This document shows, piece by piece, positions 87-6,763 of a DNA stretch of 64,000 nt. The position numbers and the translations under genes were made by a program. The notes beneath the pieces were generated by a model that saw only the letters and a list, made by a program, of their open reading frames with translations, made no database searches and was not told where the DNA came from. Positions within the stretch are counted from its first letter, which is position 1, and every line of letters begins with the position of its first letter. Location of the stretch: positions 1 through 64,000 of the forward strand of contig NZ_CP066171.1 in assembly GCF_028867705.1 (NCBI RefSeq). Direction: 5' to 3'. The stretch is from Thermoleophilum album (GTDB taxonomy: Bacteria; Actinomycetota; Thermoleophilia; Solirubrobacterales; Thermoleophilaceae).

Positions 87-1625
87 ATGATCTCCAGCCA
101 CCGACTGCTCACCCCGACCCGAGCACGGCTAGCCAGGCCCCCAGCAGAGCTAGCGGACGAATCGTCCGCCCCTGATACTCAGCCTTCAGTCGACTTTTCG
201 CTTGCCAGCGACCTCAACGACCGTTTCCACCACGAGTTGTCGCAGCTAGTCCCACGCGTCGCTTACCGCTTGTGGCTTGCAGACCTGTCCTTGAAGGCGC
301 GCGATGGCGACGCGGTCGACGTTGTCGTTGCCCCATCCCGCCTGCGCTGGGTGACGGAGCGCTACTCCGAGGTGATCATCCGTGCGTGCGAACGCGCAAC
401 CGGATCCGCTCCTCGCGCAATCCGAAGCGATACGTCACTTGGCGACGACAGCGCCAGCGCAACGCCGCCCGCCCATCGACCGCACGACAGTCTCGCCCTT
501 CCCCGCGACCCCGACCTCACGTTCGAGACGTTCGTGGTCCACGAGGGATCACGGGTAGCTCACGCCGCCGCCCTCGCCCTCGCCGAATGCAGCGACACCC
601 CCTTCTCGATACTCCTCCTCACCGGGCCTACAGGATGTGGCAAATCCCACCTCCTCAGCGCCATCAAACACCTCGCCGCCAGCCCCGCCACCAACACCAC
701 CGTCCTGCTCACCGACAGTGACCACCTCACGCGAACAATCGCAACGGCGGCTCGCAAGAGACGCGTAACCGACGTCGCCACACTACTCGGATCATTCGAC
801 CTCATCCTCGTCGACGACGCACACACCCTCGCCGGCCGCCCAACCACGCTCGCAGTGATCGCAGAGCTCGCACGCTCCTGCGCAACTCGCGCAAAGCGCC
901 TTGTCCTTGCCGCCACCAGCGACTCCGATAACCCGCCCCTCGCGCTCCCCCTGCCCGACACCTCACTCCTCCACGTCGAGCTCTCCCCACCCGAGCCGCC
1001 TGCCCACGTTCCGATCCTCGAACAGCTCGCACGACGCCTTGGCGTCGACCTCCCGCCACAAGCCCTCAAACGCATCGCGGAGATCTCGCCCCCGCTTCCG
1101 AGTTCGCTCGCCCACTCCCTCTTGCGCGTAAGCGCTTACGCGAGCCTCCGCGGCGAACCACCCAGCCCCGAGCTCGTCGATCGTGTCCTCGACCGCATCC
1201 CTCCTGCCGAAACCCCCCGACCCGACAACCCGACAGAGCTGCTCGCCAGCGTCGCACGCGCCTTTTCCGTACCCCTCGACTCCCTGCGCGGTCGCTCCCG
1301 CGCCACCCTTCCCTCTCGAGCTCGCGCCGCCGCGGCACTACTACTCCGAGAGACACTCCGTGCCTCCCTCCCCGAGATCGGGCGCCTGCTCGGGAACCGC
1401 AGCCACACCACCATCATCGGCCTACTCCAATCCGCACAGCGCCTCCTCGACAGCGACCCGCAGTTCGCTCACGCCGTTGCCAACGCACGCGCCTCCCTTG
1501 CCCGACCCGAGCTCAACCCTTCCTTGCGCCACCGTTCCGACATTCACCCGACAGTTCGCCCCACCACCACGCAACCGCACCCCACCCGACACCGAACCGA
1601 CAGTTCCCGTGAACGCCCAGCATAA
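87..1625 (+). CDS. dnaA: Chromosomal replication initiator DnaA (divergent)
   Basis: DnaA binds the origin, oligomerises with ATP, melts DNA and recruits the helicase. The 512-residue product has domain I at about 42-105, Walker A GPTGCGKS at 180-187, Walker B LILVDD at 239-244, and a helix-turn-helix domain IV at about 385-465 with SLPEIG and SHTT. A basic tail rich in Pro, His and Thr of about 40 residues follows domain IV. Compared with E. coli or actinobacterial DnaA, the box VII segment (SRF arginine finger) reads LPLPDTSLLH and the sensor II segment (R-E-L-E-G) reads LPSSLAHSLL, so both key arginines seem absent. The ATG at 87 directly follows an in-frame TAG (84-86), so the frame cannot start earlier. 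Bases 1-86 show no DnaA boxes. Identity is certain from domains plus synteny; retained ATPase function is not. Confidence 0.93.
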   Translation: MISSHRLLTPTRARLARPPAELADESSAPDTQPSVDFSLASDLNDRFHHELSQLVPRVAYRLWLADLSLKARDGDAVDVVVAPSRLRWVTERYSEVIIRACERATGSAPRAIRSDTSLGDDSASATPPAHRPHDSLALPRDPDLTFETFVVHEGSRVAHAAALALAECSDTPFSILLLTGPTGCGKSHLLSAIKHLAASPATNTTVLLTDSDHLTRTIATAARKRRVTDVATLLGSFDLILVDDAHTLAGRPTTLAVIAELARSCATRAKRLVLAATSDSDNPPLALPLPDTSLLHVELSPPEPPAHVPILEQLARRLGVDLPPQALKRIAEISPPLPSSLAHSLLRVSAYASLRGEPPSPELVDRVLDRIPPAETPRPDNPTELLASVARAFSVPLDSLRGRSRATLPSRARAAAALLLRETLRASLPEIGRLLGNRSHTTIIGLLQSAQRLLDSDPQFAHAVANARASLARPELNPSLRHRSDIHPTVRPTTTQPHPTRHRTDSSRERPA

Positions 1626-1688
1626 GCTTCCCGCGCCTCTCGCACTCCAGCCGACAACATCCGACCCTCCTACGACAATCCATCACTC

Positions 1689-2792
1689 TTGCAAGTAGCA
1701 ATCGACAGATCCGCCCTCGCCTCTGCAACCGCGATCGCCGCTCGCGCGATATCGACCCGAACGTCCCTTCAGGTTCTCACCGGCATCCATCTCGATGCCC
1801 AATCCGACCACCTCCGCCTTACGGCGACCGATCTCGAACTCGCGCTTTCCGCCACGGCGCCCGCCACCGTCGCGCACGCCGGATCGACTGTCGTACCTGG
1901 CCGCATCTTCTCCGAGATCGTTCGCTCCCTTTCAGCCCCTTCCGTCGAACTCGCGCTCTCTGACGACACACTCTCCCTCACCGCGGGCAGCGCGCGTTTC
2001 TCTCTGCGCACTCTCCCCTCTGACGACTTTCCCCTCCTCGACACCACCCCGCACTCCTCGCCCCTCTCACTCCCAGCCACACTCCTCACCGAAGACATAC
2101 CGCGTGTCGCCCGTGCCGCCTCGCGCGACGAGACTCGCCCCCATCTCACAGGAATCCTTCTGACGGCAACCGGCGACCACCTTCGACTCGTCGCCACCGA
2201 CTCATACCGCCTCGCTCTTTGCGAGCTCGCTGCACCCACCACCACACTCGACGTCAACATCCCCGCGCGGTCTCTACAAGAAGTAAGCCGTATCGCCGCC
2301 AACAGCGAAGCACAATCAGTCTCGCTCGCAGTCGACGGTAACCGCGCCCTCTTCTCGATCGACTCCGTCCTCCTCCAATCCCGGCTCGTCGAGGGCCGCT
2401 TCCCGAGCTACGAACAACTAGTCCCCGCCGAATGGGACCACGAAGTTCATGTCGACCGCATCGAGTTGCTCGACATCGTCAAGCGCGTTTCCCTTGTTGC
2501 TCAACAGCATACGCCTCTGAAATTGACACTCTCGTCTGGACAACTCACGCTCTCCGCTCAGGCACCCGACGTAGGCGAAGCCACCGAGTCTCTCCCTGTC
2601 TCCTACAACGGCACTGGCCTCACCATAGGCTTCAACCCAGTCTTTCTGCGTGACGGACTAGAGACAGCACTCGAGGACTCAGTCGTGCTCCGCTTCCTAA
2701 GCCCCCTCCGCCCCGCCCTGATTGAATCGACAAGCTCCGACAACTCTAAACGCTTCCTCTATCTTGTTATGCCGATAAGGCTTGACTCCTAA
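1689..2792 (+). CDS. dnaN: DNA polymerase III beta sliding clamp
   Basis: This is the ring-shaped processivity clamp that tethers DNA polymerase III and other DNA enzymes. At 367 residues it has the usual length of the family, with the three-domain pattern: an N-terminal block with TDLELAL near 43-50, a middle block with ATDSYRLAL, and a C-terminal end YLVMPIRL. The start is TTG at 1689, 63 bp after the dnaA stop; no ATG or GTG fits the N-terminus better. The 1626-1688 gap is too short for a usual dnaA-dnaN origin and holds no DnaA box. The gene overlaps recF by 11 bp. Its coding strand is strongly C-rich, like dnaA. Confidence 0.96.
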   Translation: MQVAIDRSALASATAIAARAISTRTSLQVLTGIHLDAQSDHLRLTATDLELALSATAPATVAHAGSTVVPGRIFSEIVRSLSAPSVELALSDDTLSLTAGSARFSLRTLPSDDFPLLDTTPHSSPLSLPATLLTEDIPRVARAASRDETRPHLTGILLTATGDHLRLVATDSYRLALCELAAPTTTLDVNIPARSLQEVSRIAANSEAQSVSLAVDGNRALFSIDSVLLQSRLVEGRFPSYEQLVPAEWDHEVHVDRIELLDIVKRVSLVAQQHTPLKLTLSSGQLTLSAQAPDVGEATESLPVSYNGTGLTIGFNPVFLRDGLETALEDSVVLRFLSPLRPALIESTSSDNSKRFLYLVMPIRLDS

Positions 2793-3879
2793 GCGTGTGC
2801 TTCTTACCAGCGTAAGCCTTCGTAGCTTTCGCTGCTTTGATAAATTCGATATTCCTCTCGACGGTGGACTGAACTTGCTGGCTGGCCCCAATGGGGTTGG
2901 CAAAACAACAGTTCTTGAAGCCATCTATGTAGCACTCACTGGAACACCACTGAGGCATGGAGGACCAACCGCCTTGGTGGCCTGGGGTAAGCCCTCCGCT
3001 AGTGTCATTCTGCGCTTTATCCCTGACCCTTCCGAGGCCCAAAGGCGCTACGAACGGTCGCTAATCGCAAAGTGCAGTCCTAGACGAGTGAGCTCCCTCC
3101 TCGACTCCGTACCGCTCTCCCGCACTGAGCTCGAGAAGTTGCGCCCACCCCTGTGTGTATTCACACCTGCGCGCGCCGAGATCGTCCGCGGGAGCCCTGG
3201 GTTTAGACGCTCACACTTCGACACCCTCCTGTCCGCCCTCAACCCCTCTTACGCACAGCTGATCCGCCGCTACGGGATATGCCTGCAGCAACGGAACACT
3301 GCGTTATCCACCGCCCCGGACGCACACGTTGATGCGTGGGATGAGCAACTCGCTGCTCTGGCCTACGAAATCCACACCCACCGCAGCCAACTCGTCCAGC
3401 GCCTGGTTCCATTTATCGAGTGCAGGGCTCGCGCACTTGGTTTGATGGGCGTCTGCGTGAGCTACCACCCCCACGGCCCTGCTGGCAGCCCGGAGGAGTG
3501 TCTTGACGCTCTCCGCAGAGCACGGCCTAGTGATCGTCTAAACCGCCGCACCAGCGTGGGCCCCCACCGTAGCGACTTCACCTTCGACCTCGCGGGCCTT
3601 CCCGCCCGGACGGCGGCATCGCAAGGCCAGCAGCGCCTTATAGCCATAGCTCTTCTCCTCGCCGAGGGCGATCTCCTCGCAGCTGTCCGCGGGCGCGTGC
3701 CACTGTTCCTATTCGACGATGCGCTCTCCGAGCTCGACCCGCACTCGGCAGAACTCGTCCTCGCGCAACTGTCAGCCACCCACCAATCCGTCCTCACGGC
3801 TACACACACCGCCCGACTTGCTCAACATCCATCAGCCACCATCATCGATTTAGCGCCTTCCAGCGAACAGGTGCACTAA
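2782..3879 (+). CDS. recF: DNA replication and repair protein RecF
   Basis: RecF is an SMC-like ABC ATPase that helps load RecA at gapped DNA with RecO and RecR. The 365-residue protein has Walker A GPNGVGKT at about 35-42, the ABC signature region SQGQQRLIAIALL near 275-290 and Walker B LFLFDDALSELD near 311-322. The TTG start at 2782 lies inside the end of dnaN; GTG at 2797 is a possible alternative. The first few hundred bases are visibly more AT-rich than dnaA and dnaN. Position between dnaN and a DciA gene is the standard actinobacterial arrangement. Confidence 0.95.
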   Translation: MTPKRVLLTSVSLRSFRCFDKFDIPLDGGLNLLAGPNGVGKTTVLEAIYVALTGTPLRHGGPTALVAWGKPSASVILRFIPDPSEAQRRYERSLIAKCSPRRVSSLLDSVPLSRTELEKLRPPLCVFTPARAEIVRGSPGFRRSHFDTLLSALNPSYAQLIRRYGICLQQRNTALSTAPDAHVDAWDEQLAALAYEIHTHRSQLVQRLVPFIECRARALGLMGVCVSYHPHGPAGSPEECLDALRRARPSDRLNRRTSVGPHRSDFTFDLAGLPARTAASQGQQRLIAIALLLAEGDLLAAVRGRVPLFLFDDALSELDPHSAELVLAQLSATHQSVLTATHTARLAQHPSATIIDLAPSSEQVH

Positions 3880-3889
3880 AGGTCATTAC

Positions 3890-4195
3890 ATGCGTCGCAT
3901 CGCCCCGCGCCATCTCTCTCGCATCATTGCCACCCTTTCTCTCCCTGGCGCCGATCCGTCTCCGGAAGCCGACCCGGCTCTTACTGCACTAACTTTTGCT
4001 TGGCGCGATGTGGTCGGTACCCTTATCGCGACTCACTCTCAGCCCTGCTCATTAGACGACGGAGTGCTTACGTTGTCTTGTAGCGAGCCGGCCATCGCTT
4101 CTGAGCTGTGCCTGCGTGAACGCGACTTGTGCCACGCACTATCGCAGCGAGGCTTTCGCGTTGCTGCGATCCGAATCCGCTCCCCCCGCACTTAA
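3890..4195 (+). CDS. dciA: DciA-family (DUF721) helicase-loader-like protein
   Basis: DciA proteins help load the replicative helicase in bacteria that lack DnaC. The 101-residue product has the family pattern: a Trp in FAWRDVVG, a Thr-His pair (ATHSQP), the strand LDDGVLTLSCSEPAIASEL and a C-terminal IRIR strand. It starts with ATG at 3890, 10 bp after recF, and precedes gyrB, exactly where actinobacterial DciA genes sit. It is shorter than the mycobacterial member, consisting of little more than the DUF721 domain. Family assignment is good; the loader role is taken from the family. Confidence 0.82.
   Translation: MRRIAPRHLSRIIATLSLPGADPSPEADPALTALTFAWRDVVGTLIATHSQPCSLDDGVLTLSCSEPAIASELCLRERDLCHALSQRGFRVAAIRIRSPRT

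Positions 4196-4294: not shown

Positions 4295-6763
<2,469 letters not shown>

Follow-up and report, generated by a model that had tools for sequence, protein, structure and literature searches.

Bacterial origins of replication are, in the textbook account, opened by a filament of ATP-bound DnaA. The dnaA gene of Thermoleophilum album raises the question whether a bacterium can keep dnaA and a fixed origin when the contacts for such a filament are gone; the original prediction for this DNA had reported that the arginine finger and the sensor II arginine are missing from the encoded protein. The gene lies at the beginning of the window, the whole stretch of DNA analysed, which comprises the first 64 kb of a genome assembled as a single contig of 2,112,804 bases (95.66% complete). 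Its open reading frame of 512 codons contains no internal stop, and the Walker A and B motifs (GPTGCGKSHL and LILVDDAH) are present, as had been stated, in a protein with the following outline:

87..1625, plus strand: dnaA, 512 aa, the sole DnaA of the genome
195..428, plus strand: DnaA domain I, a weak match (Pfam DnaA_N, E 0.067)
624..653, plus strand: Walker A GPTGCGKSHL, kept (K186), from the alignment
801..818, plus strand: Walker B LILVDD, kept, from the alignment
1215..1502, plus strand: domain IV helix-turn-helix (HTH), DNA-contact residues R405, R413, R438, H440 and T442 kept

Both the AAA+ domain (PF00308, 73.7 bits, cut-off 23) and the domain IV HTH (PF08299, 48.3 bits, cut-off 31.5) are recognized above threshold, the latter with the equivalents of the DNA-contact residues R399, R407, R432, H434 and T436 all in place, and dnaA is followed by dnaN as in bacterial DnaA loci. 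The equivalog model TIGR00362 matches over the full length but below its cut-off (181.7 versus 343.9 bits). The suggestion that a second DnaA might exist elsewhere found no support in this one-contig genome: whole-genome searches recovered only the protein itself, together with a ClpX-like AAA protein (E 0.07) when DnaA was the query and an RpoD-like protein (E 0.27) when the DnaA HTH family was used. The two weak hits, named from their sequences, were rejected as extra DnaAs as they look like ClpX and RpoD. A search of another genome of the same species (G061, 72% complete) gave no dnaA match.

The extent of the loss becomes apparent in a MAFFT alignment that sets the protein against E. coli DnaA and 57 family and order relatives. 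In E. coli numbering, R281 and R334 are both replaced by serine and R285 falls into a gap created by a deletion of seven residues, while R227 is changed to Gly, R270 to Asn, H252 to Glu and N255 to Arg. Among the relatives R227, R281, R285, R334 and H252 are conserved in 57/57 and R270 and N255 in 56/57. K178, D235 and D236 are kept in T. album, and the relatives' EEFFHTFN, the absence of which after Walker B had also been predicted, reads AVIAELAR. The remodelled positions are:

789..791, plus strand: R227 position (AID-1; role from PMC5742627), Gly in this DnaA and in that of the second genus member G001, from the alignment
834..866, plus strand: segment in place of the relatives' EEFFHTFN, from the alignment
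888..899, plus strand: R268 and R271, new basic residues shared by the genus (R and K in G001), candidate replacement contacts
918..974, plus strand: box VII/arginine finger segment, seven residues shorter, without Arg or Lys, helix absent in the model
1086..1124, plus strand: sensor II segment SPPLPSSLAHSLL, Ser at the R334 position, from the alignment

At about 31% identity to family relatives the alignment is less certain, which is the one point in favour of an artefact, be it a frame error, a misassembly or a misalignment. However, no Arg or Lys was found in residues 272-315, so that a shifted alignment cannot restore the finger; other arginines in the box VII and sensor II positions were sought in this protein and are absent, and neither a box VII nor a sensor II motif occurs in the other two reading frames of 801-1250. 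The gene order is standard, rpmH-dnaA-dnaN-recF-dciA-gyrB, continuing into gyrA. Moreover, G001, the other species of the genus and an independent assembly, encodes in the same arrangement (rpmH-dnaA-dnaN-recF...gyrB) a DnaA of 41% identity that has likewise lost R227, R270, R281, R285 and R334, the last replaced by Leu, which argues against a frame error. An artefact is thus hardly credible, refuted as it is by G001 and the residue scan, and the missing finger and sensor II arginines reported from the sequence alone are borne out.

In the genus, represented by these two species, the changes concentrate in domain III. Of the alignment columns conserved in at least 90% of relatives, both genus members kept 8/9 in domain IV versus 26/72 in domain III (Fisher p 0.003); the near-invariant arginines of domain III are all lost and all three of domain IV are kept. 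Domain III identity amounts to 38% between the two species versus 64% among family relatives. Still, both have an intact dnaA reading frame although they have diverged to 77% identity in GyrB.

The TIGR00362 cut-off is exceeded in 283/300 genomes of a class sample and 354/399 genomes of a phylum sample, and the lowest full-length scorers identified among the matches listed are T. album (G000, 1e-53) and G001 (1e-64). When 16 other low scorers were inspected, two hits proved not to be DnaA, one was truncated before sensor II and one was a split gene; the DnaAs among them all carry an arginine at the finger position and, where they reach that far, at sensor II. As side observations, G268 of the same order (L137) has lost the R281 equivalent, with RERL for RERF, and keeps R285 and R334; the phylum families f24, f30 and f45 (L134, L135, L138, L140-L147) possess divergent DnaAs, several without R227, with finger and sensor II arginines kept; and in the one-contig genome G294 dnaA extends over two adjacent reading frames (G294:C1:792343-793702, L139/L150), possibly through a frameshift or sequencing error.

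What the missing residues do is best defined in E. coli, where R285, R281 and R227 are required for domain III contacts, while R334 is reportedly needed in ATP hydrolysis and not for initiation complexes (PMC5742627). The original proposal that the missing residues drive filament formation therefore stands for R285, and extends to R281 and R227, but does not hold for R334. The arginine finger of DnaA has been described as invariant, and DnaAs of the tested Gram-negative species with the finger changed to alanine fail at strand separation (PMC8287927). Because of these residue roles and the failure of the finger mutants, we infer that the standard filament and the usual ATP/ADP switch are lost in T. 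album.

Our main reading, to which we assign a probability of roughly one half, is that a true DnaA, passed on by vertical descent, no longer has the interface through which its subunits interact in an ATP-dependent manner. Judged from its sequence, the protein most likely still binds DNA and ATP without building an arginine finger filament, and a different assembly mode, as proposed at the outset, would fit the data. Domain IV would still bind origin or promoter DNA, with ATP perhaps still bound in cis. A protein which could not build the ATP/arginine finger filament and should hydrolyse ATP poorly would therefore lack the usual timing switch; some other contact or factor would have to open the origin, and DciA might place DnaB.

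Such another contact could also preserve the canonical mechanism, if R268/R271 of T. album or an arginine of G001 at the equivalent of E. coli position 284 reached the ATP of the neighbouring subunit. This is conceivable because the G001 arginine lies one residue ahead of the finger, and because both proteins have acquired basic residues (268 and 271) that the relatives lack (E. coli position 263 is Gln in 57/57). The AlphaFold model of the T. album protein has a confidently predicted AAA+ core and HTH (mean pLDDT 81.5), and its nearest PDB folds are DnaA structures (8btg; B. subtilis domain III, TMt 0.87). It lacks, however, the helix that houses box VII and links the sensor I strand to the following one, and this segment offers neither Arg nor Lys. 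In the G001 model the box VII helix is present without R281/R285, and the adjacent arginine would speak for relocation there. Yet R227 and R334 are also gone, for which a single new residue would not substitute, and even the most divergent other DnaAs checked keep finger and sensor II. Relocated contacts are thus improbable.

The locus around dnaA bears on where replication starts:

1626..1688, plus strand: dnaA-dnaN spacer, 63 bp, without TCCACA core, GC skew -0.59
1689..2792, plus strand: dnaN, sliding clamp, fast-evolving in the genus
2782..3879, plus strand: recF, ATP/SMC-type domain
3890..4195, plus strand: dciA, DnaB helicase operator/loader family (E 1.7e-13)
4325..6763, plus strand: gyrB, evolving at a normal rate, flanks the anomalous stretch downstream

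The sign of the GC skew flips at dnaA in both T. album and G001 (mean skew of the arms +0.015/-0.009 and -0.016/+0.016; p 0.0002 and 0.0003), while a complete relative of the order sampled in the same way has no clear skew arms. DnaB is found in both species (509 and 510 bits) and DciA is encoded here; together with the skew switch this indicates that a single origin is still located near dnaA. Replication from multiple origins is unsupported, as the skew is two-armed and not irregular in both genomes.

A fixed start near dnaA is equally what would be seen if DnaA were no longer the initiator but a DNA-binding regulator or a decaying protein, and replication began by a DnaA-independent route as in Synechococcus sp. 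PCC 7002, where a unique origin coexists with a non-essential dnaA (PMC7198777). This alternative, which we regard as unlikely although it matches part of the data about equally well, would account for the loss of all interface arginines in a fast-evolving domain III beside a conserved domain IV, and the domain III divergence could reflect decay of an unneeded protein. It also agrees with the absence of consensus box clusters and with a dnaA-dnaN spacer that is short (63 bp, 58 bp in G001, versus 83-145 bp in the 40 relatives with both flanks found) and devoid of the TCCACA core present in 25/49 relatives. The box data do not discriminate, however, since the relatives likewise lack clusters: the consensus TTRTCCACA occurs at chance genome-wide in 31/31 genomes of the order searched (T. 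album and 30 others), and box loss as a genus trait was rejected for this reason. Origins in the order seem to use degenerate sites or sites other than the consensus. Against a DnaA that has ceased to initiate stand the Walker motifs and the uninterrupted frame retained in both species, and a search for an alternative initiator of the Rep3 family found none; furthermore, the free-living dnaA-independent precedents cited are cyanobacteria, with no free-living species lacking dnaA reported outside that group (PMC7198777).

A separate peculiarity of the locus is its base composition. Across dnaA-dnaN-recF-dciA (87-4195) the coding strand is extremely depleted in G, noncoding spacer included, and the depletion is limited to this operon. 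Among 336 open reading frames sampled from the genome for comparison, no coding strand is as poor in G as those of dnaA and dnaN (skew -0.32 and -0.33, z about -7). At four-fold sites G amounts to 0.12-0.2 versus 0.38 genome-wide, and A to 0.18 versus 0.07. G is lowest at about 1100-2700, the depletion has disappeared by about 5500 inside gyrB, and the genes upstream are far closer to normal. The spacer skew of -0.59 (-0.64 in G001) is below that of all 49 relatives, and the genes of G001 show the depletion in weaker form. DnaA and DnaN (87-2792) also evolve at about twice the rate of their relatives, with branch lengths of 2.27 versus 1.01 for DnaA and 0.99 versus 0.50 for DnaN, while the neighbouring GyrB is normal (0.39 versus 0.38). 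G-to-A change on the coding strand, which would imply exposure of the template strand, could account for part of the pattern, and locally raised mutation may have helped the arginines to be lost.

More speculatively, and with rather less expectation of being right than for the lost interface itself, a free-living non-cyanobacterial lineage might initiate at a fixed site beside dnaA without the ATP/arginine finger filament, the strand-asymmetric, fast-evolving dnaA-dnaN-recF-dciA operon marking DNA that is unusually exposed thereby; we consider this doubtful. A genus in which dnaA and a fixed origin persist without the filament contacts nevertheless allows the universal need for the filament to be tested directly, and is a non-cyanobacterial candidate for relaxed dependence on DnaA.

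With respect to known systems, the T. album protein resembles bacterial DnaA (TIGR00362; PF00308 plus PF08299) in its domain order I-III-IV, Walker A/B, HTH signature and AAA+ fold and in its locus between rpmH and dnaN, but differs from it as the arginine finger, box VII, AID-1 and sensor II arginines are all missing and the score is 182 bits versus a cut-off of 344. The positions concerned are those altered in E. coli DnaA at R285, R281, R227 or R334 (PMC5742627); those variants, however, are laboratory mutants analysed one residue at a time, whereas in T. album a natural, fixed gene has lost all four at once. As in Synechocystis 6803 and Synechococcus 7002, dnaA is retained though it may no longer serve as initiator, and PCC 7002 retains a unique origin, comparable to the origin near dnaA here (PMC7198777). 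The DnaAs of these two cyanobacteria, however, share about 60% identity with the functional DnaA of S. elongatus and have retained binding to DnaA boxes, whereas the DnaA of T. album, from a high-GC actinobacterial lineage, is visibly without its AAA+ interface.
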